A stretch of DNA of 34,799 bases from IMG/VR virus record IMGVR_UViG_3300036760_000232, positions 1 to 34,799 of that record. One strand, 5' to 3'. A model generated the notes under the pieces. The model did not search any database, was not told the DNA's origin, and saw nothing but the letters and a program-made list of their open reading frames with translations. A program made the translations under genes and the position numbers. Shown here one piece after another: positions 2,649 to 33,645 of this stretch (position 1 is its first letter; every line of letters starts with the position of its first letter). Source of the stretch: a virus.

Positions 2649-3132
2649 AAATCAGACAGTTAAGGCTGCTCCGAAATTCTCCAAACTTAACCTCCGCAAA
2701 CGCTTGTACTTACAAGGCATCGTTGCCGGCAAATCGAAGCGCCAGGCTGCTCTCGACGCTGGCTACTCTGACCAGACCGCACTCAAGGCCAAAGCCAGCA
2801 TTGAGACGCCAGACCTCCAAGCTGCCTTCGCTCGTCTGGTGCGTCAACGGGTCCCAGCCCACAAGCTTGGCCAGCGGATCGCTGAGGGCTTGGACGCGAT
2901 GGAAACCAAGTTCTTTCACAACAAGGGTGTGGTGACGGATTCGCGTGACGTTGTGAACTACACGGAGCGCAGAGAGTACGCTAAGCTCGCAGCGACGTTT
3001 GGAGGGTACGCCTCAGACGGTGACAAGCCCTCTGGCATTACTGCGGTCGGCGTGAAGGTGACGGTGGAGCACATTGGAACTCAAGATCAGGTTACAGCCG
3101 AAGCAAAGTGCGTTGTGGAAACTATGGGATGA
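2641..3132 (+). CDS. terS: Terminase small subunit (probable), 163 aa
   Basis: DNA-recognition subunit that would bind the packaging site and load the large subunit. A helix-turn-helix-like N-terminal segment (about residues 18-52, including AGKSKRQAALDAGYSDQTAL) is the usual small-terminase pattern. A helical middle and a C-terminal segment for oligomerisation or large-subunit contact follow. The ATG at 2641 overlaps the previous gene by 8 bases. The 3' end overlaps the large subunit gene by 59 bases. The call rests on the N-terminal pattern and on its place directly before the large subunit. Confidence 0.8.
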   Translation: MSENQTVKAAPKFSKLNLRKRLYLQGIVAGKSKRQAALDAGYSDQTALKAKASIETPDLQAAFARLVRQRVPAHKLGQRIAEGLDAMETKFFHNKGVVTDSRDVVNYTERREYAKLAATFGGYASDGDKPSGITAVGVKVTVEHIGTQDQVTAEAKCVVETMG

Positions 3133-4591
3133 CGACGGGACGACTGACATCGGCTTTGGTGGGGCGCGCGGCGGGGCAAAGTCTGGTGGTGGCCGGCGGT
3201 GCATGCTGCTGCGCCGGTTCAATTACGCCAACACTGCGGGGCTCATTCTGCGGCGAACTTTCCCAGAACTCTACAAATCCCACATTGTGAAGCTGTTCGA
3301 GGAATTCCCAGAGATTCGGCCCTGGTACAACGAGCAGCGCAAGGAAGTGGTATTCCCGAACGGCTCACGACTGTTCTTTGGCTCTGCCGAGCACGAAGCG
3401 GACATGAACGCCTTCTACTCCTCAGAATTCGCGGACATTATGCCGGATGAGGCGCAGGAGTTTTCCGAATCGGAACTCAACAAGCTGCGCGGCTCGAATC
3501 GCTGCACATCCAACCGTGACATCACCCCAAAGATGATCTACACCTTCATGCCAGGCGTAGGCCGTGGCCTCTCCTACCTGAAACGCCTCTTCATTGATAA
3601 GCAGTTCCAGCCCGAGGAAGGGCGTCGCAAGTGGGCTTTCGTGCAGGCATTCAGCTGGGACAACATCGAGTGGGCGCGTAAGGAGCTGGAACGCGACGGC
3701 GTGAGCGAGTCTCAGTTCTACGCCTGGCCAGAAGCTCAGAGACGTGACTACTTCATCAACCGCACGGAGTACGGTGCCAACCTTGCCTCCCTGACCGATG
3801 AATACCTGCGGGACGCGTGGCTCTACGGCAAGTGGAATGCCTTCGAAGGGCAGGTCTTTCCCGAATTGCGGGATGAGATTCACAACCTCGACAACTTCGC
3901 GCCGCCGAACTGGAAGCCGCCACTCTCTAAGCTGGTGTCGGCAATGGATTGGGCGGACTCAGGCGTCGCTGCTCTGCTGGGCACGGCTGTGGACCCGGAA
4001 GAGAACCTCTACGCGCTGCGCGAGTACTACGACCGCAACAAGACAGTGACCGAGCATGCGGCCAATGCTACGGGCCTGCTGGCCGAACTCGGACCACAGG
4101 ACTACACGCTCATGGATTTACCGGTCAACAACATCAACCAGCAGAACCTGTTCTCGATTCAGGATGCGTTTCGACGTGCCGGGCTGCATACGATCCAAGC
4201 GCACCGCGCCAACATCCAGATTGGCCTTGACCTGCTGAAAGAGATGCTGCGGGTTGACCCGAACCGCGTGCACCCCTTCACGCAGCAGCTGGGAGCACCA
4301 CGGCTGTTCATCTCGCGGCGCGGCTGCCCTAACCTGTGGAAAGAGGCGACGGAGCTACAGCGGGCGATTGACGCGGAGACGGGCAAAGTGAAGTACGTAG
4401 GCGCAGACCACGCGGTAGATGATCTCCGGTATATCGCTATGAGCCGCCCGAAAGCTCCAGAGCGGGCGAAGCTGGCCCCGAGCAACCTGCCCGTGTTCAC
4501 GTTTGACCAGAAGATTGCGGGCAGTCTGGGCAAGTTTGATAAGACGTTCGGGCGAGACCCGAGCGAAAACTCATGGTGGCCGAAGGCGTGA
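3074..4591 (+). CDS. terL: Terminase large subunit, 505 aa
   Basis: Packaging motor ATPase and headful or end-cutting nuclease. Walker A is GGARGGAKS (about residues 29-37). Walker B is FADIMPDEAQE (D125, E126). The RNase H-like nuclease half shows its acidic residues at D292 (SAMDWADSG), D348 (TLMDLP) and D450 (DHAVDDLRY). The start is the TTG at 3074, four bases after GGTGGAG. This places it inside the small-subunit gene and implies coupling. Length and motif order are normal for the family. Confidence 0.95.
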   Translation: MELKIRLQPKQSALWKLWDDDGTTDIGFGGARGGAKSGGGRRCMLLRRFNYANTAGLILRRTFPELYKSHIVKLFEEFPEIRPWYNEQRKEVVFPNGSRLFFGSAEHEADMNAFYSSEFADIMPDEAQEFSESELNKLRGSNRCTSNRDITPKMIYTFMPGVGRGLSYLKRLFIDKQFQPEEGRRKWAFVQAFSWDNIEWARKELERDGVSESQFYAWPEAQRRDYFINRTEYGANLASLTDEYLRDAWLYGKWNAFEGQVFPELRDEIHNLDNFAPPNWKPPLSKLVSAMDWADSGVAALLGTAVDPEENLYALREYYDRNKTVTEHAANATGLLAELGPQDYTLMDLPVNNINQQNLFSIQDAFRRAGLHTIQAHRANIQIGLDLLKEMLRVDPNRVHPFTQQLGAPRLFISRRGCPNLWKEATELQRAIDAETGKVKYVGADHAVDDLRYIAMSRPKAPERAKLAPSNLPVFTFDQKIAGSLGKFDKTFGRDPSENSWWPKA

Positions 4592-6368: not shown

Positions 6369-6626
6369 TTGCCGAAGATCATCTCCAACGCCGTCTGGCA
6401 GGTGCTGACGCAGGAGCTTGACCGCAAGCACTTGGCGCTCGAACAGGCGCAAGCTCGCATTGACCGGCTCGTAGAAGCTCTCGGCAGACGTGATCGCGTA
6501 CCTATCTTCATGCCGCAAACCCCCACCATCAATTCCAACCCAGACATCGCGCTGGAAGCGAGCGAAGGCTGGTTCGACAAGGTTCCGTTTCCAGCGTTAA
6601 AACCACCCGGAGGAAATTCACAGTGA
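6369..6626 (+). CDS. Coiled-coil hypothetical protein, 85 aa
   Basis: TTG start directly after the previous stop. Residues 8-42 form an amphipathic helix with a heptad pattern (VWQVLTQELDRKHLALEQAQ, then ARIDRLVEALGRRD), then a Pro-rich tail. The stop overlaps the GTG of the next gene, and the tail contains the GGAGG that serves as that gene's ribosome site. Function unknown. Confidence 0.6.
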   Translation: MPKIISNAVWQVLTQELDRKHLALEQAQARIDRLVEALGRRDRVPIFMPQTPTINSNPDIALEASEGWFDKVPFPALKPPGGNSQ

Positions 6627-7396
6627 AAAAGAAACTGATCGCGTTTGTCAGCATGTTTGCTTTGATCTCGCTCGGCGTCTACCTGTTCCCTGCCATCAAG
6701 TCAGCGGCTCAGGCCACCGGCATTGTCACCGTGGTCGGAGGCGCTACGCCCGTCAACCAGTTCCCCCAGGCCGTAGCTACCGGCTTGGCCGGCGGCGTCA
6801 CCAACCCGGCGGCGAACTTCGTGCTCCAGGTTGCGGGCGGGCCTATCTATTTTGGCGGCTCGCAGCAGATCATCTCGCAGTCGCAGCTGACTCTGCCGGC
6901 TTCTTCCACCAACTTGATTGTGTGGAATGGAACGACAGAGCAGTTGTATGCGAAGCAGGCCGTGGCCGGGCCTGGTTCTTCGGGCACGAGCGTGGGCATT
7001 CCCACGTCGCTCCTGTTCGCCAATCCGGGCGTAGAAATCCCGCTGGCAACGGTGGTCTGCAACGCTACGGCATGCGGCAACGGCGGCAACGGGTCAATTA
7101 CCGACGCTCGACCTCTGGCAGCTTTCCCGGCTGGCGTTTACGTTGGCGGCCACTTGAACCAGGCGGCGGCGGGTACGGCAGCGGCGTTGAGCTTTGCCGG
7201 AACCTGTACGCTGGCGGGCAACACCTGTACCATGACCTTCCCGCAAGCCTTTCAGGTAGCTCCGGTCTGTCTGGCCACTGACCAGACTACGCCGCAGTTG
7301 GTAAAGGCTCCTGCTACCACGGCCTCTGTGATCGTGACGGACACGGTGGGCGCTACCGATGTAGTCAGCGTCGTCTGCTTCGGCAATCCCAACTAA
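6623..7396 (+). CDS. Secreted-type fibre or decoration protein, 257 aa
   Basis: GTG start at an overlap with the previous stop, preceded by GGAGGAAATTC. The N-terminus is a textbook Sec signal: MKKK, a hydrophobic core (LIAFVSMFALISLGVYLF) and a likely cleavage near SAAQA. The rest is beta-rich, with phrases common in phage appendage proteins (NLIVWNGTTEQLYAKQA; EIPLATVV). It has six Cys, arranged as close pairs near the middle and end. Position next to the portal argues for a virion protein, but the export signal is unusual. It could be a capsid decoration, a fibre, or a protein acting in the host envelope. Confidence 0.65.
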   Translation: MKKKLIAFVSMFALISLGVYLFPAIKSAAQATGIVTVVGGATPVNQFPQAVATGLAGGVTNPAANFVLQVAGGPIYFGGSQQIISQSQLTLPASSTNLIVWNGTTEQLYAKQAVAGPGSSGTSVGIPTSLLFANPGVEIPLATVVCNATACGNGGNGSITDARPLAAFPAGVYVGGHLNQAAAGTAAALSFAGTCTLAGNTCTMTFPQAFQVAPVCLATDQTTPQLVKAPATTASVIVTDTVGATDVVSVVCFGNPN

Positions 7397-7397
7397 C

Positions 7398-9593
7398 GTG
7401 GGCGGTTTGTTGGCAGCTGTGCGCGGCCTTCTCGGAGGCGGTGCGCAGGGACAATCCGACTCGCCTGCTCCTGATCAGTCCAAACAACTGAGCTTCACGC
7501 AGCAACGCTGGAACGATCTAAAAAATGCCTACGTCGTCCTGCACCAGTCCATCTGGCAAGCGTTGCTGTTCTATGCGAACCAGAGCTATCTGGATTGGGA
7601 CGACGCTCGCAAGGTCTGGCAGCCTCAGCAGCCTACCGATGAGTGGGTGCCACGTCCACGCATCAACCGTTTCTCTCCGACCGTTGACGCCATCGCTTCC
7701 AACTTCTACCAACTCCCGGAAGTTGAAGCGGTGCCAAAGTCAGAGGACGATGCGCAGGCGCATACCATCGCTGCCATCTGCTCGGATTTGGTCAAGTACG
7801 GCATCGTGAAAGAAGGGCTGAAACACCAGCAAGGGCAGCAGCAGGACAAGGTAGGCTCTGCCGCGCAGCAATTCGTTCTGGCCGGGGGATTGTTTTCCAT
7901 CCTCCGGGTGAAGCAGAAATCTCTCGGCCAGAAACCGCAGCAGGCGATGGGGCCAGCCTTCAACCTGACCTGCGAGATGTGCGACAAGGTAAACACCGTC
8001 CCTAACGATGGCAACCCGCCACAGTTCTGCTCGCAGTGTGGCAGCCCGCTGACTTCGGAAAACACGGAAACCATGCAGCCGCAGATGGACGAGTCGGGCC
8101 AGCCGCAAATGGAGGACGTTTCGGAAAATGAAGTCTCACTCGACATTGGCAATTCCCTGTTCGCCTTTCCGCGCCCCGGTGCCACCTCGCTTGAGGACTC
8201 CCCGTTCCTGCTCTGGGCGCAACGAAAAACTTTGGACGACATCTGGTATCGCTGGAAGTTTGAAGCCCAAGCCGACGCCGTTTGGCCCGACGGATATTCC
8301 GTTACCTACGAACACGCCCTCAACTTCTGGTACACCGGATATTCCTCCAGCACCATCCAGGTAAAAGATTCGTGCATGGTGCTCGAACTCTACGTGGCTC
8401 CGAACAAGGTGAAGGACTACCCCGAAGGCTTTCACTCCGTCGTCATCAACGACAAGCCTGTGAATGGCCAGCAGTGGACGTGGCAGTATCCCGACCACCC
8501 GGTCACGATGGCAAAGTACTTGGATTTGCCGACGCTGTTCTTTCCACGCTCGGTGGCGTTTGATCTAGTCGAATTGCAGCGCGAAACGAATGCCTACGAG
8601 TCGCTGATTAAGCTGCACTGCATGGTTTCCGCCGTCGATCCGTGGGTGATTGATTCCGACACTATCGTCACCGACATCACGGGACGCGCCGATAAGGTCA
8701 TCAAATACCGGAAAACGAATCCAGCCTCGGAAGCTCCCCACCGCGCCGGCCACGGGTCTTTGGATGAAGGTGTCTACAAGAAGCTGGACATGCTGCATGC
8801 GGAGTTTCAGAACGTGTCGATGGCGGTCAACGCCTTCCGTGGTCAGCAGGAAGGTGGAGTGACGGCGGCGGCGGCGATTCAGCAGCTTCGTTCGCAGGCG
8901 GAAATGATGTTCTCGAAGCCCGCCGCGAACTGGCGGAATTTCTGGCGCGATACGTTGCGCAAGTACGTGAAGTTTCTCCAGAAATTCTACAGCTTTGAAC
9001 AGTTGGTAAAGATTCTTGGCGAAGGGCGCGAAGAGGAAATCAGGGCGTTTACCGCTTGCGTCCTCGATGACACGGTGGATTGGGTCGCATCTGACCACGG
9101 CATGCCCCGAACGCGCGACGAACGCCGTCAAGAACTCATGGCACTGTGGGACAAGGGCGCGATTGATCCGAACGATGCTGCGGTACGTCAAAAGGCCGCT
9201 GAATTGTTCCCTGAGATTGGTTTTCAGGCTGCCTTCAACAAGGATGCCACGAACGCACGGCTCGAAAACCAGGCATTCAAGTCTGGGGCGGGACAGCAGG
9301 GTGAGCCTTACGTGCCACCGCATATTTCTCCGATGCACCCACCGCTTGAGGACAATGCTGTGCATCTGTATTTCCACGCCGATCAGGTGAAGTCGCAGGA
9401 CTTCAAGAAGTGGGACCCGATGGCACAGCAAGCTCTGATTCAGCACGTCATGGAAACGCAGATGTTGATGGAACCCCCGCCCATGCCCGCACAGCCGGGA
9501 CAAGGCGCGGCCCGGCTTGCCGCCCATAAAAACGTGCAGGGCCAGAACCCGCAACTGGCACCCCCGACCCCAACTCCAGGAGCACCGCAGTGA
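7398..9593 (+). CDS. Portal protein with zinc-ribbon insert, 731 aa
   Basis: Dodecameric head vertex through which DNA passes. The N-terminal part (WNDLKNAYVVLHQSIWQALLFYANQSYLDW) and the long helical second half (residues about 430-620, MLHAEFQNVSMAVNAFRG, QQLRSQAEMMFSKPAANWR) fit the SPP1/P22-type portal of podovirus-like phages. Residues 192-214 hold CEMC and CSQC 15 residues apart, a zinc ribbon inserted in the clip or wing region. The length is at the large end for portals. The GTG at 7398 has no clear ribosome site and depends on read-through from the gene above. The C-terminus is Pro/Gln-rich and disordered. Confidence 0.85.
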   Translation: MGGLLAAVRGLLGGGAQGQSDSPAPDQSKQLSFTQQRWNDLKNAYVVLHQSIWQALLFYANQSYLDWDDARKVWQPQQPTDEWVPRPRINRFSPTVDAIASNFYQLPEVEAVPKSEDDAQAHTIAAICSDLVKYGIVKEGLKHQQGQQQDKVGSAAQQFVLAGGLFSILRVKQKSLGQKPQQAMGPAFNLTCEMCDKVNTVPNDGNPPQFCSQCGSPLTSENTETMQPQMDESGQPQMEDVSENEVSLDIGNSLFAFPRPGATSLEDSPFLLWAQRKTLDDIWYRWKFEAQADAVWPDGYSVTYEHALNFWYTGYSSSTIQVKDSCMVLELYVAPNKVKDYPEGFHSVVINDKPVNGQQWTWQYPDHPVTMAKYLDLPTLFFPRSVAFDLVELQRETNAYESLIKLHCMVSAVDPWVIDSDTIVTDITGRADKVIKYRKTNPASEAPHRAGHGSLDEGVYKKLDMLHAEFQNVSMAVNAFRGQQEGGVTAAAAIQQLRSQAEMMFSKPAANWRNFWRDTLRKYVKFLQKFYSFEQLVKILGEGREEEIRAFTACVLDDTVDWVASDHGMPRTRDERRQELMALWDKGAIDPNDAAVRQKAAELFPEIGFQAAFNKDATNARLENQAFKSGAGQQGEPYVPPHISPMHPPLEDNAVHLYFHADQVKSQDFKKWDPMAQQALIQHVMETQMLMEPPPMPAQPGQGAARLAAHKNVQGQNPQLAPPTPTPGAPQ

Positions 9594-10369
9594 GAAAACT
9601 TCTGTTCATGCTGTTATTCGCTCTGCCAGTGATGGCGCAGCAAGCGCAGTTCATGGCTCCCGATTGCCAGTTTGAGTTTAGTTACAAAGTGGTGGCGAAC
9701 GTCATTACTTCGACCACTTCTCTGTCGGCTAACCGGCTCCCGCTTTCTCAGGGTGGTGGAAACGTGGTGGGGTACGACAATCGGAGTCAGGGCTGCACCA
9801 GTTGGACGATCACGGGGCAGACGCAAGGCATTTCGGCGATCAGCTTTGAGCTTGACCAAGCTGTAATTGCGGCGGGCGACATTCCCGGCTCTTGGGTAAC
9901 GTGGACGGCTCCGGCTCCTGGCACGGTTTTCCCGATTACGGCGACGGGAACGATTCAGGCGTCAGCGTTTGGCTATAACCCCTGGGTGTCGGTGAATCTG
10001 ACCTCGGCAACGGGAACGGGAACGGTCTATGGAAGGGTGTACGGCTGGCGCACGCAGGCCGGATCGGATGTGACCGCCCCAGGAAACTCTGTGGTGGTGG
10101 CGGGATTCGCTTACAAGCACATCTCGACCGGCACGAATACGCAAATCAAGGCTACGCCTGGCACATTGCACACGCTGGTGATCAACACCACCGTGGCCAG
10201 CACCATCACCGTAGTGGATACGTCTGCTGCTAACTGTAGCGGCGGCGTTAATATCGCAGTTTTCCCCGCCTCAGCGGTAGTTGGGACCTACACCTACGAC
10301 GTAGCGACCGTGAATGGGCTTTGCATCACCACCGCTGGAGCTTCTGATCTCACTGTCAGTTTCCGATGA
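9590..10369 (+). CDS. Secreted-type beta-rich structural protein, 259 aa
   Basis: GTG overlaps the portal stop, with GGAG upstream. A short clear Sec signal (MRKLLFMLLFALPVMA, then QQAQ) precedes a mature protein of beta strands with four Cys, which could make two disulfides. The C-terminal part (TPGTLHTLVINTTVASTITVVD) resembles the jelly-roll-like end seen in many phage decoration or minor head proteins. Its place between portal and scaffold suggests a head component. The signal peptide is hard to reconcile with cytoplasmic assembly unless it is retained as a membrane anchor. Confidence 0.65.
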   Translation: MRKLLFMLLFALPVMAQQAQFMAPDCQFEFSYKVVANVITSTTSLSANRLPLSQGGGNVVGYDNRSQGCTSWTITGQTQGISAISFELDQAVIAAGDIPGSWVTWTAPAPGTVFPITATGTIQASAFGYNPWVSVNLTSATGTGTVYGRVYGWRTQAGSDVTAPGNSVVVAGFAYKHISTGTNTQIKATPGTLHTLVINTTVASTITVVDTSAANCSGGVNIAVFPASAVVGTYTYDVATVNGLCITTAGASDLTVSFR

Positions 10370-12518: not shown

Positions 12519-12524
12519 CCAACG

Positions 12525-12553: not shown

Positions 12554-12579
12554 GAACAACTTGACGATGGAGTTAAACA

Positions 12580-13875
12580 ATGGCAGTTGATACGACTACC
12601 TACCTACCAGACGCAAAGATTGTTTATGGGGCTATCCAAGAACAGGTCAGCACGCTTCCAGCGGTGATGAACCTTTTCGGTGACGGCTCCAAGTTCGGCA
12701 AACCGATCAACAACGTTGGCGTGCGCGGCTACGTCTTTCTGGCCCGCGTTGCGCCCAACTGGAACATGGGCTACCGGGCAGAGGGCACCACGGGCGTCGG
12801 CGCAGCCGGCAACCAGGGGCTGACCAATGCCACCGTGACTCTGCGCTACTTCTACGTGCCCATCGTCATCACGGGCCAGGCGGAAAACCTGACCAAAGGC
12901 GAGTCGCGCGCTTTCATGCAGGCCAAGGCTCTTGAAGCCAAGTTCGACATGAAGGACGCGGTATCGCACGTCAACGTGGTGGTAACCGGCGCGGAACCCG
13001 GTGGCCAGCTCGCTCAGGCGGCTGCTCCCATCGTGGCCAACACCTCATTCACTGCTGACAACACTGGTCTGCTGCCCGGCGCGATCTTCTTGCGTGTTGG
13101 CCAGCCGATTGACTGTATCCCGGTCGGTGGTGGCGCTCCGTCGTTCGTAAACCAGAAAATCAGCGCCATCAACTACACCACTCGCGTGGTTTCGGTGCCC
13201 GCTACGGCGGTTGCTGGGCAGGCTATCGCGCTCACGGGTGAGTATCCTCAGGTGGCCATCGCTAATGATGGCTGGTTTGCCTCCAACGGCTTCCAAAACC
13301 TGGTGAACTCCTCGGGCGTAGTTGAAGGCATTGACCCCGGCGTGTTTCCGGCCTGGCAGTCGTTTCTGCTCGACAATGGCGGCGGCGCGCTTAGCTCGCA
13401 GCTCTTGCAGCAGTTGCGCCAGTTCGTGAAAAACCGTGGCGGCGTTGATGGGAACGTGTTCATCGTTCCTTCGGCGCAAATCAACCAGTATGTCGGCATC
13501 GCAACGACCACGCTGCGCTTCGACATCACCAACGAAGGCCCGGCGGCCAAGGTTGGCAAAAAAGCCCTCGATCTCGGCTTCAACGTATTTGATTACGCTG
13601 GCTTGCCGATGGTTGAGGACAAGGATGCCCGCACTGACCGCATTTTCCACGGCGACACGGAGATGATGAAGAAGTTTGAAGCCATCCCGCTCTCGCTCGC
13701 TGAGGATGAGGCTGGAACTTGGACTCGCGTCATCGGTGCCAACGGCATTGCTGATGCGGTGGCTGGGCTGCTCCGGTGGTATCACAACATCGGTATCGTG
13801 CAGCGTTCGGCTTGGGGCCGCTTGCAGAATTTGCAGGTGCCTGCTGGCTTTGCCACTGCGCCCCCGACGATCTAA
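12580..13875 (+). CDS. Major capsid protein, 431 aa
   Basis: Forms the shell. The position after the scaffold, the strong ribosome site (GGAG 9 bases before the ATG) and the length fit an HK97-fold capsid protein. The N-terminal helix and strands (AIQEQVSTLPAVMNLFGDGS), the central region with FVKNRGGVDGNVFIVP and the C-terminal DYAGLPMVEDKDA…RIFHGD are the usual phrases of this fold (spine helix, A-domain strand ending, then a loop carrying charged residues). It has one Cys. No signal peptide or maturation protease is evident, so scaffold removal may be by exit rather than cleavage. Confidence 0.85.
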   Translation: MAVDTTTYLPDAKIVYGAIQEQVSTLPAVMNLFGDGSKFGKPINNVGVRGYVFLARVAPNWNMGYRAEGTTGVGAAGNQGLTNATVTLRYFYVPIVITGQAENLTKGESRAFMQAKALEAKFDMKDAVSHVNVVVTGAEPGGQLAQAAAPIVANTSFTADNTGLLPGAIFLRVGQPIDCIPVGGGAPSFVNQKISAINYTTRVVSVPATAVAGQAIALTGEYPQVAIANDGWFASNGFQNLVNSSGVVEGIDPGVFPAWQSFLLDNGGGALSSQLLQQLRQFVKNRGGVDGNVFIVPSAQINQYVGIATTTLRFDITNEGPAAKVGKKALDLGFNVFDYAGLPMVEDKDARTDRIFHGDTEMMKKFEAIPLSLAEDEAGTWTRVIGANGIADAVAGLLRWYHNIGIVQRSAWGRLQNLQVPAGFATAPPTI

Positions 13876-15458: not shown

Positions 15459-15461
15459 TCC

Positions 15462-20582: not shown

Positions 20583-21944
20583 ATGCGCGGCTTCAACATG
20601 CTGGGCGGTGACTCACCGATGACGGGCAACTTCGCTCTGGGCCAAGGTGCCGATGACGTGACGCAACAAATGCGGAAGCGGGGCCTTCTTTCTGCTCTAG
20701 CGGGAATCCTACCGCAACCGCAGATGGATCGGATCGAAGATGACAAGACGCGGCATCCCGAAGGGCAAGACAGCGAATTGCCACGGATACCGATGCAAGT
20801 TCCCGACTCGCCGGGCATGGCGGGCGCAGACATCAACGAGAACGGCCCACCGACGATGGGGCATCATCTGGCCGACTTGCAAAGTCAGTATTACCAGACC
20901 AACCAGCCGGAAGCACCGGTATCACTCAAGCAGAAACTTCTGCGCGGTTTCGTAGGAGCTTTTGGCGGGCCAGAACTAAATCAGCGGCTCCAGCAGCGGG
21001 AAGAATTCGGGCTGTCCCAGAGAAGCGACAGGCGCAACCGACTCCTGCAAGCCATCGAAGAAGAACGGCGAATGCAGGAACAAGAACAGATGGGCACGCA
21101 GCGGATGACGCTGCAAGAAAAGATGCAGGCCGCGCGGGAGAAAGCGGCACAAGAAGCGCAGGGCAGACTGTTCACGCAACAGAATGAATTGGAAGGAACG
21201 CGGCAAGCTGCTCGGGACAAGACTCTCAAGGAAACGATCGCTGCGCAGAGTGCCACCGAACAACAGAGAGAAGATGCTCGTTCTCGCGACCTCGACAAGC
21301 GCCTGGCAGCGCAGGGCGGTAAAGACGTAGGCACCTGGCAACTCAAAGATGGTGATGACGGTAAGCCCGTAATGTGGAACAGCAAAACGGGGCAGGTAAA
21401 AGATGCTCCACCGGGGATTCGCGGGAAACCTACTGCGGACGAACAGCGGCGCGCAGACCTTGCGAACAACATGGAAAAGAACCTCGACTCTCTGGAAGAG
21501 ATCGTTGATCGGCGTCATGATTTGTTCGGAAAGTTTGCTGGACGCATGACTGCCATGCAGCAAAGTGATTCCCCTTGGAATCCATTTGCCGGAACCGGCG
21601 ATGCTGACGTAGCAAAACTAAAAGCGATAACGGAATATCTCGGCATGGCCTCGGTGGGCGCTCACGCCATGCGCAATGCGCAACACGTCGCCCAAGCCGC
21701 CAAGGCTGTGACGGCTGGATTCATGAATTCTCCAGAAGCAACGAAGGCTGCGATTGGGGAAGCGCGCGCGAGTCTTGCGACCTTCAAGCAGGACGTGCAA
21801 GACCCCGGTAGGTCTGGGCGAGGAACGCCGAACGCTCCGCCGCTCAAAACCAAAGTGCAGAGCGCGGCTCCTGAGGGGCATCGCATCACCAACGGAAGTC
21901 AGACTCTTGAGAAACGACACGGACAATGGGTGCCAGTCCAGTAA
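20583..21944 (+). CDS. Coiled-coil internal virion protein, 453 aa
   Basis: Starts 3 bases after the previous stop. Residues about 135-245 are a continuous charged coiled coil rich in Arg, Glu and Gln (RRMQEQEQM, EKMQAAREKAAQEAQG). The second half has a helical Ala-rich domain (AKLKAITEYLGMASVGAHAM). This fits an ejected core protein. It ends in HGQWVPVQ. The gene overlaps the next one by 19 bases. Confidence 0.55.
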   Translation: MRGFNMLGGDSPMTGNFALGQGADDVTQQMRKRGLLSALAGILPQPQMDRIEDDKTRHPEGQDSELPRIPMQVPDSPGMAGADINENGPPTMGHHLADLQSQYYQTNQPEAPVSLKQKLLRGFVGAFGGPELNQRLQQREEFGLSQRSDRRNRLLQAIEEERRMQEQEQMGTQRMTLQEKMQAAREKAAQEAQGRLFTQQNELEGTRQAARDKTLKETIAAQSATEQQREDARSRDLDKRLAAQGGKDVGTWQLKDGDDGKPVMWNSKTGQVKDAPPGIRGKPTADEQRRADLANNMEKNLDSLEEIVDRRHDLFGKFAGRMTAMQQSDSPWNPFAGTGDADVAKLKAITEYLGMASVGAHAMRNAQHVAQAAKAVTAGFMNSPEATKAAIGEARASLATFKQDVQDPGRSGRGTPNAPPLKTKVQSAAPEGHRITNGSQTLEKRHGQWVPVQ

Positions 21945-23275
21945 CATTTTCTGATATTCCTCCTGGGTTTAAGTCTGTCCCAGAAGCAGGCGGGCAGGAA
22001 TTCAGCGACATCCCCGAGGGGTTCAAGTCTCTTGCTCCCGAGCAGGGATTCAGCATCGGTGCGCGCCACGAGCCAAAGACGCTGGCAGAGAAGGTGCAAC
22101 GTCTTGCCGGGGATTTTGGAGACGACTTGCGGTACGGCACCGGCCAGACGATGGCAGGGAGCCTCTTGCGGAAAATGGGGGCGCAGCCTCTGTATTCCGG
22201 CACGTCCGAAGGGGCAGCCGAGATGGTGGAGTCGCTGCCCTTGGGATTGACGAAAGCTGTTGAGGGTGGAGCACAACTCGCGCAGCCGGGCCGGAGATGG
22301 CAGGGAACGAAAGACGTTGCAAGCGGTCTACTTCAAGCCTCAACACTTCCAGGAGGATTTGTCGCGCCCGAAGCAGCAGAGGCAAGTACGGCACTCGCGG
22401 GGAAGCTAGGCCCACCAGTCGGGAAGACTCTAAAGGAAGCCGTCAAGGGTGTGGCGAAGCTAGCGATTGATGTGCCTCTATTCGGTAGAGGCAAAGCCGC
22501 GCTGGATGCGGTCGGCGAAGCTGGCGGGAACATCAAGAAGATATGGCAAAAGCCGCCCGTTTACCCTGGTGCGTTTCTGCCTGAGCATCCGGGTGTCTTT
22601 CCGGGCGCGAACCTACCTGCGACGCCTCCCCCAGAGTTTTTGAACCCGAGCTTGGTCAGCCCGGCGCGAACCCTTCCGGGGCAGCTTTCCAGAGAGGTAA
22701 CGCGCGCACCCAGAGTAGCCCCGGCAGCACCACTTCCCTCCCGGCAAGGGTTGATGCTACCGGGCAAGGTTGACCCCGCAGCGGCCTTAGCACGGCCTGC
22801 GCAGAGCGGTGTACCCCTGCCAGGGGAGGCGCTAGGCAAAATTCCGGCTCGCCCCAGCCTGATTGAGCAGATGGGTGGAAAGCCTGTGGAGACGATCACG
22901 GAACGATCCGCGTGGCCTCCAGAAAGACCTGAAATCTTCCCACCGCGCGGACCCGCTACTGGCAGCGCGGAGGACATCGCTGAAACGCGGCAAATCCAAG
23001 ATCGCATCAGGAACGCAGCAGAAGGCGAAGATCGTTCTCGGTTAGGGATCATGCGCAAGGATTGGTTCGCCCGCAATCAGCCTGGGCTAACTAAGGGCGA
23101 ACTGACCGGGACGCCGGAGAAACCCGTGCGCTATTCAAAGACGCCCGGCGTGAGACTCGCCGACAAGGTGCGCCAGGCTTCGGCTCAGGGAACAAAGGTT
23201 CCTGGCCCGGCTGAGGATATGACTCCTCTTCTAAAAAAGTCTCTGAAAGATGCGATGCGGAAGAAGGCTGATTGA
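21926..23275 (+). CDS. Internal virion protein with N-terminal FSDIP repeats, 449 aa
   Basis: Begins inside the gene above. The N-terminus carries two copies of FSDIPxGFKS (FSDIPPGFKS, then FSDIPEGFKS), a motif seen in phage proteins that are ejected or cargo-like. Ala/Gly-rich amphipathic helices follow (residues about 85-200), then a long Pro-rich linker and a basic C-terminus (LLKKSLKDAMRKKAD). A role as ejection protein with membrane-active helices is inferred. Confidence 0.55.
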   Translation: MGASPVTFSDIPPGFKSVPEAGGQEFSDIPEGFKSLAPEQGFSIGARHEPKTLAEKVQRLAGDFGDDLRYGTGQTMAGSLLRKMGAQPLYSGTSEGAAEMVESLPLGLTKAVEGGAQLAQPGRRWQGTKDVASGLLQASTLPGGFVAPEAAEASTALAGKLGPPVGKTLKEAVKGVAKLAIDVPLFGRGKAALDAVGEAGGNIKKIWQKPPVYPGAFLPEHPGVFPGANLPATPPPEFLNPSLVSPARTLPGQLSREVTRAPRVAPAAPLPSRQGLMLPGKVDPAAALARPAQSGVPLPGEALGKIPARPSLIEQMGGKPVETITERSAWPPERPEIFPPRGPATGSAEDIAETRQIQDRIRNAAEGEDRSRLGIMRKDWFARNQPGLTKGELTGTPEKPVRYSKTPGVRLADKVRQASAQGTKVPGPAEDMTPLLKKSLKDAMRKKAD

Positions 23276-23317
23276 AGATTCCTCCCCACGGCGCGTACAT
23301 GTCTGACCCGTCGTACC

Positions 23318-23503
23318 TCACCGCATGCCCATGTAGGAGAGGAAGTCAGTGCGGAATTCTCTGCACAAGTTTCGCAGGGCTGAAATGATGCCCCTAATTA
23401 TAGCTAGGGCCAGCGCGAGCAACGTGCCTAGCACCCCGAACACGACCGCAAACAGGCAGATACCAACGGCAAACCAGAAGCCGAATACCAAGCCATTCTC
23501 CAT
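23318..23503 (-). CDS. Antisense small membrane protein, 61 aa
   Basis: A convincing membrane protein on the strand opposite the late operon: MENGLVFGFWFAVGICLFAV and LGTLLALALAIIRGIISAL form two hydrophobic segments, followed by a polar tail. The ribosome site is weak. A CATGAT box 9 bases before the ATG might be a -10, giving an almost leaderless transcript like the other antisense genes. The plus strand here has a competing 60-aa frame from GTG 23349 with a good GGAGAGGAAG upstream, but its Ser/Pro/Thr/Asn-rich product looks like a shadow. Could be a holin-like or exclusion protein; unproven. Confidence 0.45.
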   Translation of the reverse strand: MENGLVFGFWFAVGICLFAVVFGVLGTLLALALAIIRGIISALRNLCREFRTDFLSYMGMR

Positions 23504-23562
23504 TACCCAGCCATCATGTTCCCTTTCCTAAAATCCCGCAAGCCGGGAAGAAAAGGCGAAAG

Positions 23563-24942
23563 ATGAAACGATTTGCGACCCTATGCACTTTTTTGCTACT
23601 CGCCGCCTGCGCCGGGGCCACCACTACGACCCTGACCGGCTCTATTAAGGATGCGCAGGGCAACCCGCTCAACGGCACCCTGATTATGAGCCTGCCCGTC
23701 CCGGCCATCGACACCACCACCAACACTGCCGTGATGCAGGGGCCAGTGTTCTTCCGCGTAGTCAACGGGGCAGTGACGGGCGGAGCGGCCCTGTACGACA
23801 CAGCGACCATGCAGCCGCAAGGACTCTATTACAGAGCGCGCGGCTATGACGCGATGGGCAACCTGATGTTCTACGGGAACTACGTGGTCACCGGGGCGAG
23901 CTTCAACATGGGCGCGGCCATCCCGACCAGCGTCACCACGTCCAACATTTCCTACCTGAATCCAGCGACGACGAACGGGAACAACACGTTTACGGGAACA
24001 AACATCTTCTCGAATGGCGTGCAGGTCAACGTCTCTGGGACGGGCTGCGGGAAAGCACTTTACCTGCTGAATACGGATGCAACGCCCACCAGCCCGAACA
24101 AGTACTTTCGCATCAACCAGACCACGGGTGCGTTGGAACTGGTGAACTCGCTGTGCAACTCCGTGCTCTTGTCCATTGCGGACAACGGAGCCATCACAAA
24201 CTCTTCCGTCTTTGGCCCGACGTTTGGCGGCACGATTACCGCACCCTCGTTGGCCAGCGTAGCTGGTCTTGGGATTATCGTTTTTGGGTCGCAGGCGGCA
24301 AGTCCAAACGGAACTGCCACCTTGCAGGGAGGCCGGGACAGCACTTCCCTGGCGAACATTAAAGGACTGGATGCCATTGTCACCGGAGGAAATAGCTCTG
24401 GGGCGGGAGGCTTCATCGGTGGCGCAGTGCAACTCCTCGGTGGAGCGGCTGGCGTAGGCTGCTTTGGCTCGCCACCGTGCCCTGGCCCCATCAACACCAA
24501 CACGATTTTCGGACTCTATAACAACATCGCCACCGCTGGGGACACGCAAGGGATCGCCAGTGAGTACGCTGCGGTTGAGCTGATCGGCCAGAATGCCAAC
24601 ATTGGCGGCACCACGCTCTATGCCGTCCCAGCAGTCTCCGGCATACAGTACACTTCCTTCTACTACCGCGTTTCTTGCTACGTCGTCGTGACCACAGTGG
24701 CGGGCGTCAGTTCCACGCTACCCTCCTGCGTCATTGGCTGGACGGACAAAGACAACGCCACGGTGGAAACATTCACGCTGACACCGACCAACGCTGGCAA
24801 TCTCCTGACCACTTTCCAGCAAGCCACGATGGTACTGAGCGCGAAAGCCTCAACCAATATCACGTTTTCTACTACCGGCTACGCCTCAAACGGTGCCGGG
24901 ATCATGCAGTACGCAATTCACATTCGACTTGAAGCCCTCTAG
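23563..24942 (+). CDS. Lipoprotein-type tail fibre protein, 459 aa
   Basis: AAAGGCGAAAG precedes the ATG. The N-terminus MKRFATLCTFLLLAAC is a signal with a lipobox (LAAC), so Cys16 would be lipidated if exported. A beta domain of carboxypeptidase-regulatory type follows (GSIKDAQGNPLNGTLIMSLP), similar to the one at the start of the tailspike. A long Gly/Thr/Asn-rich fibre then has six further Cys, and a beta-rich C-terminus. Position directly before the tailspike suggests a fibre that holds or accompanies it. Confidence 0.7.
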   Translation: MKRFATLCTFLLLAACAGATTTTLTGSIKDAQGNPLNGTLIMSLPVPAIDTTTNTAVMQGPVFFRVVNGAVTGGAALYDTATMQPQGLYYRARGYDAMGNLMFYGNYVVTGASFNMGAAIPTSVTTSNISYLNPATTNGNNTFTGTNIFSNGVQVNVSGTGCGKALYLLNTDATPTSPNKYFRINQTTGALELVNSLCNSVLLSIADNGAITNSSVFGPTFGGTITAPSLASVAGLGIIVFGSQAASPNGTATLQGGRDSTSLANIKGLDAIVTGGNSSGAGGFIGGAVQLLGGAAGVGCFGSPPCPGPINTNTIFGLYNNIATAGDTQGIASEYAAVELIGQNANIGGTTLYAVPAVSGIQYTSFYYRVSCYVVVTTVAGVSSTLPSCVIGWTDKDNATVETFTLTPTNAGNLLTTFQQATMVLSAKASTNITFSTTGYASNGAGIMQYAIHIRLEAL

Positions 24943-24956
24943 GGCCGGGAAACCCC

Positions 24957-27365
24957 ATGAAACAACTGTTGTTGTTTTTGCTGCTCTTGGCAGCTCCACT
25001 CTTTGCACAGACCGCCGTCAGTGGTGCCGTGGTAGACCCCAACGGCAACCCCTATGCCAACGGAACTGTCTCTGCGTTTTCGACTGGCAACACGGGGCAG
25101 CCTTCTTCGTCCAGCGGCCCGTTCGCGCTCAGTTCGCTCGGAGCCTTCACCATCACACTCAATACCAACACCTATGTATTCACAGTTTGCGCCCCGCCAG
25201 TGAACTTGGGGCCAACGGTCAACCTGACTCCGAAACAAATCTGTTTCAACAGTCCCCCAATCGCAATTTCGGGCGGCGTACAGGATGTCAGCGGCAATCT
25301 CAATGCAGTGGCGGTGTCGCTTGGCCCACGTCCCCCGGTCACGCCGACCACCGGCACCGGGCAATGGCTCTATGCCTCAACGCAGACAGGCACGTTCGCT
25401 TCCGACAAGATCAACACTGCAATTACCGCGCTCAATGCTTTAGGCGGAGGCACAATTTATGCCGACTTCGTAGGCGCTCAGACGATCCACAGCAACATCG
25501 TGCTCGGGCCTAATATTCATCTCGTTTTGGGTTGCGGGCTGACGCTTTCTCCTGATGCGATCAACCTCGGCATCGTCCTCGGCAACGCCGTTGATCAGAG
25601 CAACATTCGTGTGAGCGGTTGCGGTGAGTCCAGCATCCTTGACTTTAGCGGCCAAGGATCATCCGGGAACAATGCTCATGTCCGCTGCAACGCGACGAAC
25701 CGCTGCGGCTCGAATCTCCGGATCGACCACTTCAACATCAAAGGCAACCGTCTTGCCGTATCCGGCTCCATCTCCGCAGCCTCGAACGATGGTGCCGGCG
25801 GTCACGGAACGATCACGGTTTCGGGCGTCGGGAACATCACGAATAACGGCACGGTCTACGTCAACAACGTCAACCCCTCAACCTACAACTGCCAAAATTG
25901 CGCCATCACTTCGAGCACGCCCACCACGATCACCTACAACTGCCCAACCTGTAACGGCGCGGTCTACATAGCCGGCGGTAATTACGAAGCACCAAGTTCA
26001 GCCTGCACCTTGCTGGCACAGAACAACTCGGTGCAAAGCGGCGTCTACATCGAGGACATGAGATTCCAGCAGTGCGGAGCCATCGGTGCTCACGTGCAGT
26101 CAATGTCTGATGTCCACCTACGCCGCAATCGGTTCGATCAGACCATGTCTCCGGCCATCCAGATGAACTGCTCGATTGCAGCGGCCCGCTGTATGCAGTG
26201 GGAAGCCGCCGATAACGTGCTCTGGGATGACGATGTTGTGGACGTTTCTGGTTCGGCCCTGCTCAACATCATCAACACTGGAGCAGCTTCGATCACGCAG
26301 GGCATTGTCCTCAAGGGCAATCACGTCATCAACGACATTCTCGGCTCAACCAAGACCACGGCAGATGACGTTTGCAATCACAAGGCAGATGCGACGGCAA
26401 CCGGCTGCGGCCAGCTCATCGAAATCAACGGCGCGCTCGACCTCGACGTAATCGACAACGTGATGCGCCTAACGAATCATGAGTGCATCTCCGTCCTGAA
26501 TGGCGGCGCGGGCCACATCAACATTTCGAATAACATCATGTCGCTATGCGGTGCGAACGTGGGCGGAACTCCGGCACTGGTGACTACGGCTGGCGCTGGA
26601 GCCATTGAACTCTTTGCAGGGGTCGGCGCACCAACGCTGACGCAGGGCTTTACGAACATCATCGGAAACAATGTCTATGATTCAGGCTATTGCATTGCGC
26701 TTCAGCTTGGCAATGCCATCACCGATGACACTCACATCATGGCCAATGTTCTGGCGAGCGGGAACAACTGTCACAGCGTTTCGCAGCCCATCGTGCGGGG
26801 CATCTTCGTCACGAACCTCACCGGCGCTTCGGCCTGCGGTGGTGCTACCCGAAAATGCAACTGGGCCACGCAGAACGTCAACCTGATCGGCAACATCATC
26901 TCCAACGGAACGGCAAACTGCAATGGTGGAGGCGCGAACCATTGTTTCCTGTCGCTTGGCCTGCAATCGGGAACTTCCGATGAGCGGAACACCCTTGGGG
27001 CATCCTGCGCCAATCCCGGGTCATGCGCGATTCAGGTGCTGGATAACACGCTCGGCTTAGGCGGCGGTGTAGGAGCGGTCTGCTCCAGTTCCGGCGGCAC
27101 TTGCGGCGATGCTTCCGAAGGTTCTTTCAGCATGGCTGCCGCAGCGACCACGGCCACGGTCACGACGACTCAGGTGGGCACGAACAGCCAAATCCTCATC
27201 ACCGAGGACATGACGCTGGGGACGCGGTTGTCGGTCACCTGCAACACCACGCAGGGACGCACCTATGCCGTGACCACGCGAACCGCTGGCACCAGTTTCA
27301 TCATCACGGCATCTGCGGCCCCGGCAGCAAACCCGGCGTGCTTGAGCTTCAAGATCATCAATTAA
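24957..27365 (+). CDS. Tailspike-like beta-helix protein with signal peptide, 802 aa
   Basis: A classical Sec signal (MKQLLLFLLLLAAPLFA, then QTAVSG) is followed by a regulatory-type beta domain (GAVVDPNGNPYANGTVSAF). Residues about 150-700 are a parallel right-handed beta-helix (AITALNALGGGTIYADF; repeated GxHINISNNI, DLDVIDNVMRL, NIIGNNVYDSG strands) of the pectate-lyase-like type used by polysaccharide-degrading spikes. It has 30 Cys, many in adjacent helix turns. The C-terminal 80 residues form a separate beta domain. Receptor binding or depolymerase activity is inferred from the fold. The signal and the cysteines point to folding in the periplasm. Confidence 0.8.
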   Translation: MKQLLLFLLLLAAPLFAQTAVSGAVVDPNGNPYANGTVSAFSTGNTGQPSSSSGPFALSSLGAFTITLNTNTYVFTVCAPPVNLGPTVNLTPKQICFNSPPIAISGGVQDVSGNLNAVAVSLGPRPPVTPTTGTGQWLYASTQTGTFASDKINTAITALNALGGGTIYADFVGAQTIHSNIVLGPNIHLVLGCGLTLSPDAINLGIVLGNAVDQSNIRVSGCGESSILDFSGQGSSGNNAHVRCNATNRCGSNLRIDHFNIKGNRLAVSGSISAASNDGAGGHGTITVSGVGNITNNGTVYVNNVNPSTYNCQNCAITSSTPTTITYNCPTCNGAVYIAGGNYEAPSSACTLLAQNNSVQSGVYIEDMRFQQCGAIGAHVQSMSDVHLRRNRFDQTMSPAIQMNCSIAAARCMQWEAADNVLWDDDVVDVSGSALLNIINTGAASITQGIVLKGNHVINDILGSTKTTADDVCNHKADATATGCGQLIEINGALDLDVIDNVMRLTNHECISVLNGGAGHINISNNIMSLCGANVGGTPALVTTAGAGAIELFAGVGAPTLTQGFTNIIGNNVYDSGYCIALQLGNAITDDTHIMANVLASGNNCHSVSQPIVRGIFVTNLTGASACGGATRKCNWATQNVNLIGNIISNGTANCNGGGANHCFLSLGLQSGTSDERNTLGASCANPGSCAIQVLDNTLGLGGGVGAVCSSSGGTCGDASEGSFSMAAAATTATVTTTQVGTNSQILITEDMTLGTRLSVTCNTTQGRTYAVTTRTAGTSFIITASAAPAANPACLSFKIIN

Positions 27366-28079: not shown

Positions 28080-28223
28080 ATGTCTTATGAGGCTTGGATC
28101 AGTACTCTCATTGGTGCCCTCCTTTGCGCTATCGGCTGGCTTCTTATGCGCTTTGTGGGCCGCGTGGACGCGGGGCCGACCCGCCAAAGAAGCCGCCGAA
28201 CCCGCCTGATGGTGGCTAGATGA
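28080..28223 (+). CDS. Small single-pass membrane protein, 47 aa (possible holin)
   Basis: MSYEAWISTLIGALLCAIGWLLMRF-type membrane segment followed by a strongly basic tail (RQRSRRTRLMVAR). The ATG at 28080 has AAGG 13 bases upstream and the stop overlaps the endolysin ATG (ATGA). A membrane segment plus basic C-tail directly before an endolysin is the common class III holin arrangement. Confidence 0.5.
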   Translation: MSYEAWISTLIGALLCAIGWLLMRFVGRVDAGPTRQRSRRTRLMVAR

Positions 28224-28702
28224 ACGACCACTCCAAGGAGCGGCTGAAACTCATCAACCCGCATCTGGCGAAGGCCGTGCTCCAGATGGCTGAGATGTAC
28301 GAAACGCAGTTTCCCGGCGATGTGCTGGAAGTGGAGCAGGGGTTGCGGTCATGGGCTGAACAGCAACGGCTCTACGCTCAGGGGAGAACAACACCAGGAA
28401 ACGTCGTGACGCAGGCGCAGGCGGGGCACTCATGGCACGAATACGGCCTTGCCGTGGACGTATGCCCTGCCAGCCTGCTCAATCAGCCGAACTGGGCACC
28501 CGCAGATGCGAAGTGGAAGCGCGTGATGGCGATGGGCGAATCGTGTGGCCTCTATCCCGGTGCGAAGTTCTCACACCCCGACCAGCCGCATTTTCAACTC
28601 ACAGGCCGCTTCGGACTCTCCCCAGATGACGAAGCGCGGCAACTCTTTCGGGATGGTGGGATGACCGCCGTTTGGCAAGAAGCCGGACTACTCGATACCT
28701 AA
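28220..28702 (+). CDS. Endolysin, M15-family L-Ala-D-Glu-type peptidase, 160 aa
   Basis: Cuts peptidoglycan stem peptides to release progeny. The zinc motif SWHEYGLAVDV (H73, D80) and the third ligand in HPDQPHFQL (H124) identify the M15/VanY family. The family start, EQGLRSWAEQQRLYAQGR, is also present. There is no signal peptide, so a holin is needed for release, consistent with the membrane genes upstream. ATGA overlap with the 47-aa membrane gene. Confidence 0.9.
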   Translation: MNDHSKERLKLINPHLAKAVLQMAEMYETQFPGDVLEVEQGLRSWAEQQRLYAQGRTTPGNVVTQAQAGHSWHEYGLAVDVCPASLLNQPNWAPADAKWKRVMAMGESCGLYPGAKFSHPDQPHFQLTGRFGLSPDDEARQLFRDGGMTAVWQEAGLLDT

Positions 28703-31413: not shown

Positions 31414-33645
31414 CTAGCTGGCTCCCTCCGCGTCCCGGCTCGCTGGTTGGAGTTCTGGAAAGAACATTGATTCCGTCTTTCTGTGGGCGATTCTCAAGTT
31501 CTCGCACGCTTGCTTCCAGTAGCTTTCTTTAAGTTCCACGCCGATGAATTGGCGACCCTCTTGTACGGCCACATAGCCCTCAGAACCGATGCCCGCGAAG
31601 GGACTGAACACGGTATCCTCCGGGTTGCTCCACAGTTCGATGCCGCGCCGAATCACTCCAAGCTGGAGCGGGCAGATGTGGCGCTCATCTTCATGTTCGC
31701 GGGCCGATGTGCGCTGTAGAGTGTCGCTGGGGTCAATGTCCATCCAGACCGGGCTGGCATACCGCTGCCAGATGGACACTGGGAAGCTCTCTCCGGTATG
31801 AGTCACGCGCTGCTGGTTTTCCCCCGGCTTCCGCATTGTTACTAAGTAATCCGCGATGCCTTGGCGCGACATGCAAGAGTCTTTCTTTAACTGTTTGTGC
31901 AGCAGCCCTAGTGCCTTGGTGCGCTGCATCGCCGTCACAGGGTCTTTCCAGATGCAAACTTCGGAGTGATAGATAAATCCACCCTCGCGGAACATGCGAA
32001 TCAGATCACCGCGAAAATCTGCAATGCCGATATAGCCATCCCGCTCTTTGGAAATGGGTAGGTTCATGCAGTGGAAGCTGAGACACCTTCCCGGCATCAT
32101 CACGCGATACAGTTCTTTCACCAGAAAGCGGAAGTGCTCGTAAAACTCGGCATGATTGCGGCAATTACCCATGTCCTGTGCATGGGCTGAGTAGGTGTAG
32201 AGGCTGGCGAACGGCGGAGAGAAAATCGAATAGTGCATCGAATCGGCGGGCATCTGTGCTGTGACCTCCACGCAATCGCCAAGGTGCATCGTCCAAGCCC
32301 GACCGGAATCGAGCCGATGAACAAGGACGTTGGTGCGGTGCTTCGCGCTTCCTCGCACTTCTTGTTGATTCAATTCGTGCATATTGTTGACCATCTCCTC
32401 GGCCATCTTTTGCGCATCTGCTTCTTTGCGCTTGATGTTTTCCGTTACGGCGCCCTCGGTTGAGCTAGTTACGATGAAGCACCGCACGGGGTGCGTTTGG
32501 CCGAACCTCCAGCAGCGCCGCACCGCTTGATAGAACTGCTCATAGGAATCGCTCAGTCCTAGGAATACGACATTGGCGCAGTGTTGCCAGTTCATGCCAA
32601 ACCCAGCGATAGAAGGTTTCGTGACTAGCACGCGAATCTCCCCGCGAGAAAAGCCCATCATGCGAGCTTCTTTGACGCTGCGGTCATCGGAGCCTGCTAC
32701 TTGCACCGCCCCCGGAATTAGGCTGGCTACCATTTCACTTTCGATATTCAGGTTGCACCAAATCAGCCATGACTCATTCGGGCGAGAGGCAACTAACTCC
32801 GCGACCTTGGCAGAACGTTCGTCTGTGCTATTGCTTCGCGCCGAGCGTCGTTCCTGTAAGGTGATTGCTGGAAGTGCAAATAGTCGGCCATCGGTGGGCT
32901 TGTGGACTTCAATCGAAATGTCCTCAATCTCCAGCGGGGGAAGGATGAACTGCGCGTCTTCATAGCCTAGGTCGCTGGGCTTCCGCAGCATCACCGCCCA
33001 GGAGCAGACCCACTTCCAGAAGTCTTGCGCGGCGTGCTTTTTAACTCGCCATTTCGCCGTATCGCCACCGTCATGCACGAAGAAAGTAGAAAGCATTTCG
33101 GTGCGCGTCAATGCCGCGAGAAATTCCGCATGGTTTCCAAGCTCCATGTAGTCATTGGGTGCAGGTGTCGCAGTGCAGGCTAGCTTGAAAGGTGTGCGCT
33201 CGAAGCTAGAAATAATCTGATTGCGGAACATGCCATCATAAGATTTCAGGATGCTGCTTTCGTCGAGCACAATCCCCTGGTACTCGCTTGGGTCAAAGTG
33301 CTCGATCATGTCGTAATTCGTAATGCTAATTTGCGGCGCGGGATCGGACTTGCGCACATACTTGACAGGGATACCGAATTTCTCCCCTTCGCGCACGGTC
33401 TGCTGTGCGACAGCTAGAGGAGCAAGAATCAGCACGCGGCCAGGGACATGACGTGCCCATTCCAACTGCATCGGAGTTTTCCCCATGCCACAATCGCAGA
33501 ACAGAGCGGCTCGCCCCTTGCGCAAGGCCCACGCGACAATATCTCGCTGAAAGTCGTACAGCATGGGATTCAAGGCAGGCACTTTCTGCAGGCCAGTATG
33601 GGGATGGCTGATCGTCTTTTGTGCCAAGAACTCTTTATAGGTCAT
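31414..33645 (-). CDS. SF2 (SNF2-type) helicase fused to DNA N6-adenine or N4-cytosine methyltransferase, 743 aa
   Basis: Two enzymes in one chain. Residues 1-420: SNF2-type helicase with Walker A GMGKT (53-57), VLDES (motif II, 126-130), CTATPAPND (157-165) and motif VI QAVRRCWRFGQ (373-383). Residues 440-735: amino-methyltransferase of the beta arrangement, with the catalytic SPPF (476-479) before the AdoMet-binding FSPFAGIGSEG (680-690). No endonuclease is present, so it acts in replication, packaging or protection of phage DNA rather than as a restriction system. SPPF suggests N4-cytosine or N6-adenine. ATGA overlap at the start; the end QPASRDAEGAS repeats the tail of the previous gene product. 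Confidence 0.9.
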   Translation of the reverse strand: MTYKEFLAQKTISHPHTGLQKVPALNPMLYDFQRDIVAWALRKGRAALFCDCGMGKTPMQLEWARHVPGRVLILAPLAVAQQTVREGEKFGIPVKYVRKSDPAPQISITNYDMIEHFDPSEYQGIVLDESSILKSYDGMFRNQIISSFERTPFKLACTATPAPNDYMELGNHAEFLAALTRTEMLSTFFVHDGGDTAKWRVKKHAAQDFWKWVCSWAVMLRKPSDLGYEDAQFILPPLEIEDISIEVHKPTDGRLFALPAITLQERRSARSNSTDERSAKVAELVASRPNESWLIWCNLNIESEMVASLIPGAVQVAGSDDRSVKEARMMGFSRGEIRVLVTKPSIAGFGMNWQHCANVVFLGLSDSYEQFYQAVRRCWRFGQTHPVRCFIVTSSTEGAVTENIKRKEADAQKMAEEMVNNMHELNQQEVRGSAKHRTNVLVHRLDSGRAWTMHLGDCVEVTAQMPADSMHYSIFSPPFASLYTYSAHAQDMGNCRNHAEFYEHFRFLVKELYRVMMPGRCLSFHCMNLPISKERDGYIGIADFRGDLIRMFREGGFIYHSEVCIWKDPVTAMQRTKALGLLHKQLKKDSCMSRQGIADYLVTMRKPGENQQRVTHTGESFPVSIWQRYASPVWMDIDPSDTLQRTSAREHEDERHICPLQLGVIRRGIELWSNPEDTVFSPFAGIGSEGYVAVQEGRQFIGVELKESYWKQACENLRIAHRKTESMFFPELQPASRDAEGAS
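31426..31450. repeat. Gene-junction repeat, copy 3
   Basis: Twenty-five bases identical to 33654-33678. It encodes the C-terminal tail PASRDAE of the helicase-methyltransferase and ends just before its stop. The part of the repeat that supplies the next ribosome site in the other copies is replaced here. Confidence 0.85.

Follow-up and report, generated by a model that had tools for sequence, protein, structure and literature searches.

Assembly of tailed phages is taught as an entirely cytoplasmic process in which receptor-binding proteins are reduced and Cys-poor, and to our knowledge the well-studied tailspikes all fold in the cytoplasm. Among the closest described systems to the proteins reported here are the P22-type tailspikes (P22 gp9, Sf6 gp14, Pam1 and Pan3), with which many signal-bearing spikes of the relatives share the predicted fold of the N-terminal domain, a detectable sequence match over it, and long variable C-terminal modules beyond it. 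These spikes differ from the P22-type tailspikes in having a Sec signal peptide ahead of that domain and an extra Cys pair (VTVC...PCSP) that is missing from the signal-less proteins. Export of phage late proteins by Sec is itself known from signal-peptide and SAR endolysins, but those are lysis enzymes and not virion receptor-binding proteins (PMC6116005). We found no description of Sec-exported tailspikes in the open-access literature, so that novelty is not proven; as far as that literature shows, they are an undescribed variant of tailspike biogenesis.

The stretch of DNA analysed here (the window) comes from a soil phage and is one complete IMG/VR virus record, IMGVR_UViG_3300036760_000232, of 34,799 nucleotides, the features of which are collected in Table 1. 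The gene of interest encodes P0001, a product of 802 aa with the N-terminus MKQLLLFLLLLAAPLFAQTA. Translation gives exactly 30 Cys (3.7%), the number counted in an earlier note on this DNA, all of them in the mature part and none in the signal peptide. Sec signal peptides were called by a transparent rule consisting of a basic n-region, a hydrophobic core and a small-x-small cut site. The N-terminus of P0001 passes this rule. Shuffling its first 44 residues gave passing sequences in 2.8% of cases, and among 11,707 internal segments taken from signal-less proteins of these phages 0.35% passed. The start codon, preceded by a GGGA-type ribosome site, is the sole ATG up to codon 260. A downstream start that excludes the signal, which the earlier note had raised as a counterargument, is not credible in the P0001 sequence because the next start with a ribosome-site-like sequence upstream is a GTG at codon 219, already inside the body of the protein; an artefact of this kind was therefore rejected. 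Judged by the rule, the shuffles and the start, P0001 has the Sec-type signal peptide that the earlier note had proposed, at an unambiguous start. That note had placed the cut between A17 and Q18 (mature QTA), a position that the rule permits and that agrees with the many relatives in which the mature chain starts with Q, although the rule itself prefers residue 22. No Cys lies near the cut site of P0001, and hence there is no lipobox.

Directly behind the signal peptide, residues 18-131 of P0001 share 37-41% identity with the post-signal-peptide domain of an SGNH-esterase spike and other spikes of the relatives described below. This domain is also distantly related to gp14 and gp15 of the cultured phage Tunturi_3 (best of 5001 with 5000 shuffles; hhalign 92%), two proteins of the tail cluster, gp15 being annotated as a tail fiber, that have no signal peptide. 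Against the head-binding-domain profile of the relatives, the match of the P0001 N-domain family spans only 26 columns, and a comparison of the family with solved structures gave no match. The N-domain of P0001 would therefore belong to a related but separate family, the identity of which with the P22-type head-binding domain is only putative. Further along the chain, the motif INTAITALNALGGGTIYAD and a weak match to the K1-lyase C-terminal domain suggest a beta-helix depolymerase body. An AlphaFold2 model of P0001 made without relatives reached a pLDDT of 37.8 and is unusable for Cys-Cys geometry, and it gave no confirmation of the earlier note's placement of many Cys in facing turns of a beta-helix, which is thus only putative. 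For P0001 itself, a beta-helix and a head-binding role are proposed from a motif, from distant homology and from the position of the gene.

Table 1. Features of the window, with positions counted from its first nucleotide
Feature	Position	Strand	Basis
Large terminase, query for finding relatives	3074..4591	+	
Predicted exported Cys-containing protein, 257 aa, between terminase and portal	6623..7396	+	Signal rule
Portal protein	7398..9593	+	phrog_156, E 3e-19
Predicted exported Cys-containing protein, 259 aa (MRKLLFMLLFALPVMA/QQAQ), after portal gene	9590..10369	+	Signal rule
Major head protein	12580..13875	+	phrog_14242, E 3e-21
Cys-free internal-virion-type protein, upstream of spikes	20583..21944	+	
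Second Cys-free internal-virion-type protein	21926..23275	+	Weak similarity to G003 22608-23900
Second predicted exported spike/fibre-like gene, 459 aa, directly upstream of P0001, 6 mature Cys	23563..24942	+	Signal peptide with lipobox-like LAAC
Predicted exported tailspike-like protein P0001, 802 aa, 30 Cys	24957..27365	+	Translation
Sec-type signal peptide of P0001, residues 1-17 (MKQLLLFLLLLAAPLFA); cut after 17 or up to 22	24957..25007	+	Rule test, start analysis
N-terminal beta-sandwich-type domain, residues 18-131	25008..25349	+	Sequence comparison; weak CarboxypepD_reg (transthyretin-like) match
Putative beta-helix entry motif, residues 148-170 (ASDKINTAITALNALGGGTIYAD)	25398..25466	+	Sequence; helix then short strands in low-confidence model (pLDDT <60, weak)
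Weak K1 capsule lyase C-terminal domain match, residues 729-788	27141..27320	+	E 0.0073, below cut-off
Endolysin (VanY/M15 peptidase), without signal peptide	28220..28702	+	

Genes of the operon follow the order terminase, portal, scaffold-like protein, head protein, tail genes, the two Cys-free genes at 20583 and 21926, the two spike-like genes at 23563 and 24957, and the M15 endolysin. P0001 is thus encoded at a tailspike-type position, in the late operon after internal-virion-type genes and before the lysis gene. Four genes of the window carry signal peptides (those starting at 6623, 9590, 23563 and 24957), and all are in this one late operon. The endolysin has no signal peptide, and holin-dependent lysis is therefore expected. 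A Cys-free pair resembling that of the window precedes the spike in relatives G004, G008, G024 and G026, and the G003 gene listed in Table 1 likewise precedes a signal-bearing spike. The N-domain of the spike-like product encoded directly upstream of P0001 is related to Tunturi_3 gp14 (E 4e-4).

Several other genes of the window deserve mention. The two genes flanking the portal gene represent a second exported Cys-containing gene with counterparts in G007 (12701), G008 (12408), G018 (3423), G020 (14109) and G028 (7659); in the relatives, this gene, found either between terminase and portal or immediately downstream of the portal, forms a conserved family of ~570 aa, with Cys conserved better than any other residue, and it is possibly another fibre. 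Between the portal and scaffold genes, 10366-11034 encodes a 222-aa protein that lacks a signal peptide and contains 10 Cys, spaced in a way that suggests metal binding and not disulfides. The scaffold-like protein (11027-11977), just upstream of the head protein, has few or no Cys and a conserved hydrophobic N-terminus (for example MRNMLKLFWTWFLFSGTMFFAAGA), which is the best conserved part among its counterparts (G004 15103-16473, G007 17911-19305, G008 17978-19375 and G019 10018-11472); a gene at the head-protein position of G019 (11722-13032) has a similar start, MFTKLLLRLLNHLMFGSTLFFGD. Near the left end, a tRNA-Pro (tgg) lies at 1274-1364 with no other clear genes in that end, and on the minus strand 31414-33645 encodes a helicase C-terminal domain fused with an N6/N4 DNA methylase.

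No close relatives of P0001 were found in IMG/VR, GTDB genomes or INPHARED, and PHROGs gave no match to it; relatives of the phage were therefore gathered via the terminase. This yielded 37 IMG/VR loci, 27-64% identical, with near-copies removed before counting. A search of genomes with the terminase alignment found no prophage, and a portal-based search gave no matches. Almost every long relative contig has between one and four signal-bearing, Cys-rich spike-like genes, located at the spike position and, in many cases, between the terminase and portal genes as well. The exception is G024, in which the spike position is occupied by a 1099-aa spike with 8 Cys and without a signal peptide. The earlier note had treated P0001 as a single odd gene, which it is not, given that dozens of relatives share signal-bearing Cys-rich spikes; by sequence, such spikes are a general property of the whole phage group.

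In many of these relatives, a domain of ~70-90 aa directly follows the signal peptide. A model of this domain built from 24 sequences reached a pLDDT of 82.7. When it was compared with solved structures, the top 13 aligned chains were all tailspike head-binding domains (Pan3 Z 10.6, Pam1 9.1, Sf6 8.9 and P22 8.6), followed in 14th place by carboxypeptidase D (Z 7.7). Foldseek returned the same tailspike group with a best E of 1.3e-3, carboxypeptidase D chains being interspersed, and viral models matched the domain with E down to 2e-5, including several pectate-lyase and tail spike proteins. At the sequence level, the domain profile matches 7eeq 'Tailspike head-binding domain' with E 5e-6 when signal-less sisters are included and 2e-3 from the signal-bearing copies only, and one of these sisters (L107:5000-5935) matches proteins annotated as tailspikes or tail fibres in the cultured podophages PBR31, X14 and VvAW1. 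From model and sequence together, we identify the post-signal domain of the relatives as a tailspike head-binding domain. With this domain and the gene position, the tailspike identity proposed for P0001 holds for the gene class. The same evidence disfavours capture of a host secreted protein, because the signal-bearing genes have phage head-binding domains and their signal-less sisters match tailspikes of cultured podophages.

Cysteine content of the head-binding domain follows the signal peptide. At least two Cys are found in 22 of 22 signal-bearing copies, three of which (G008, G020 and L109) were identified with a longer cut or on visual inspection, versus 0 or 1 Cys in all 7 signal-less copies from the same phage contigs and in 6 cultured podophage proteins. 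The added pair is typically VTVC...PCSP, flanking a short insert. Signal-bearing and signal-less copies sit side by side on four contigs (G029, L107, L108 and L113). L110:4542-5711 combines a signal peptide with a domain of the cytoplasmic type; its Cys pair occupies other positions and looks independently gained. In a tree of the domain with Cys masked, the signal state changes on three supported branches and the Cys pair follows in all three, although these co-changes are by themselves not significant.

The association extends to whole proteins. Among genes of at least 240 aa, pooled Cys content is 1.82% in signal-bearing versus 0.93% in signal-less proteins of the same phages (P 8e-9). Of the 68 signal-bearing proteins with Cys, 59 have an even mature count, versus 192 of 394 signal-less proteins (Fisher 1e-9), in a set where counts span 1 to 40 and homologues are not fully independent; the 30 Cys of P0001 agree with this pattern. 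Furthermore, five homologous spikes of 1.8-2.0 kaa show 20 neighbouring pairs of variable Cys columns with the same pattern, compared with 9.0 expected (P 2e-4). This paired gain and loss, measured in the giant spikes of relatives rather than in P0001, has its highest excess for Cys of the twelve residues tested, the other eleven reaching 0.8-1.6 fold with weaker excesses for W, Y and R. Parity, paired changes and the signal-confined Cys pair together support export of the signal-bearing spikes to an oxidising compartment and their disulfide bonding, as the earlier note had interpreted P0001.

Cultured phages offer parallels. Tunturi_2 is a podovirus with a host in Tunturiibacter (Acidobacteriota; laboratory host Tunturiibacter psychrotolerans X5P2) (PMC11924767), and the main text of that paper makes no mention of signal peptides. 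We find them in five of six consecutive tail-cluster genes of this phage (L090, 9802-22744), at or near the annotated starts of gp12, gp13 'tail fiber', gp14 'pectin lyase', gp16 and gp17 'virion structural protein', and in none of portal, head, gp7, gp11, gp31, gp32, gp37 and gp38. Mature Cys counts are all even (20 in gp12, 10 in gp13, 20 in gp14 and 34 in gp17), two IMG/VR spikes share stretches of 32-44% identity with gp12 and gp13, and gp113 and gp114 of the siphovirus Tunturi_4 resemble the signal-bearing genes of Tunturi_2 in these signal peptide and Cys features. A weak tblastn match of the head-binding domain to a small Tunturi_2 ORF was taken as chance. Both phages are like the window group in signal peptides, high even Cys content and tail gene cluster, but unlike it in terminase and gene order. 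These parallels, and they only, suggest Acidobacteriota as host of the window's lineage. Tunturi_3, which shares its host strain with Tunturi_2, has signal-less, mostly Cys-poor tail fibres, with no signal peptide among its tail genes; export is therefore the phage's choice and not forced by the host. The cultured proteobacterial podophages PBR31 and BcepC6B are alike in having a signal-bearing gene immediately downstream of that for the tail spike or fibre (orf035 'putative structural protein', L121:75-881, and gp19 'tail fiber protein', L122:2501-3574, respectively). They differ in that these are small accessory proteins with 2-4 mature Cys, the main spike or fibre being signal-less. Such small signal-bearing genes after the spike may be a wider, unnoticed class.

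We conclude from the sequence evidence that the signal-bearing proteins are real virion-type spikes, exported and disulfide-bonded. For P0001, the best overall explanation, to which we give a probability of roughly two in three, is a Sec-exported, periplasm-folded tailspike that docks onto virions at lysis; the signal, the Cys, the head-binding domain of many relatives and the gene position carry this reading, and its remaining steps are drawn from them. P0001 would be a tailspike that binds the host surface and probably acts on polysaccharide. It would be synthesised as a Sec precursor, pass the inner membrane unfolded, lose its signal peptide and fold in the periplasm with ~15 disulfide bonds, while virions without spikes are assembled in the cytoplasm. 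Once holin and endolysin open the cell, virions would meet mature spikes, which as the last assembly step would dock via their N-terminal domain. In vitro, tailspikes of P22 add to heads that lack them. The earlier note had offered three fates for P0001 (joining virions at lysis, acting as a free depolymerase, or staying anchored in the membrane), none of which is singled out by the evidence; joining virions is the likeliest route because in many relatives the signal peptide is immediately followed by an intact head-binding domain.

The signs of export and disulfide bonding would also be expected of a protein that never joins the virion, such as a free depolymerase or a surface protein. It might strip or mask the host surface, either ahead of lysis or during it, help release, or block superinfection. 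The presence of several signal-bearing genes per phage, one copy lying between terminase and portal, and of a GDSL/SGNH esterase domain on one spike fits such a protein as well. However, a virion head-binding domain opens the mature chain in many relatives and would be useless to a free enzyme, the genes lie in the late operon downstream of Cys-free genes of the internal-virion type, a position at which G024 carries the same domain on a spike without a signal peptide, and Tunturi_2 is without any other obvious spike set. We consider a free protein unlikely. Less probable still is a spike held by a retained or lipidated N-terminal hydrophobic stretch, either until pick-up by virions or permanently. 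Lipobox-like sequences do occur (LAAC in the gene directly upstream of P0001 and LSGC in G003 29215-35142), and the hydrophobic N-terminus of the scaffold-like protein hints at membrane-near assembly, but most signal peptides, including that of P0001, end in an ordinary small-x-small site without a lipobox. A non-working signal, with the spike folding in the cytoplasm and its Cys free, would bring P0001 into line with the well-studied tailspikes but is very improbable, as even parity, paired Cys changes and a signal-confined Cys pair are unexpected for cytoplasmic proteins.

We see about an even chance that soil tailed phages of a large group, some of them on Acidobacteriota, assemble in two compartments, with heads and tails made in the cytoplasm, spikes exported beforehand by Sec and oxidised in the periplasm, and completion only at lysis; the hydrophobic N-terminus of the scaffold-like protein may in addition place procapsids at the membrane. 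If true, exported disulfide-stapled spikes would amount to a split assembly line, could account for high stability in soil, and would place free spikes outside the membrane before lysis, where they might serve in superinfection control. Such depolymerases would be better expressed in an oxidising compartment, and caution would be due in pipelines where late genes with a signal are removed as belonging to the host. With Tunturi_2 and Tunturi_4 in culture, the idea of exported spikes is directly testable.
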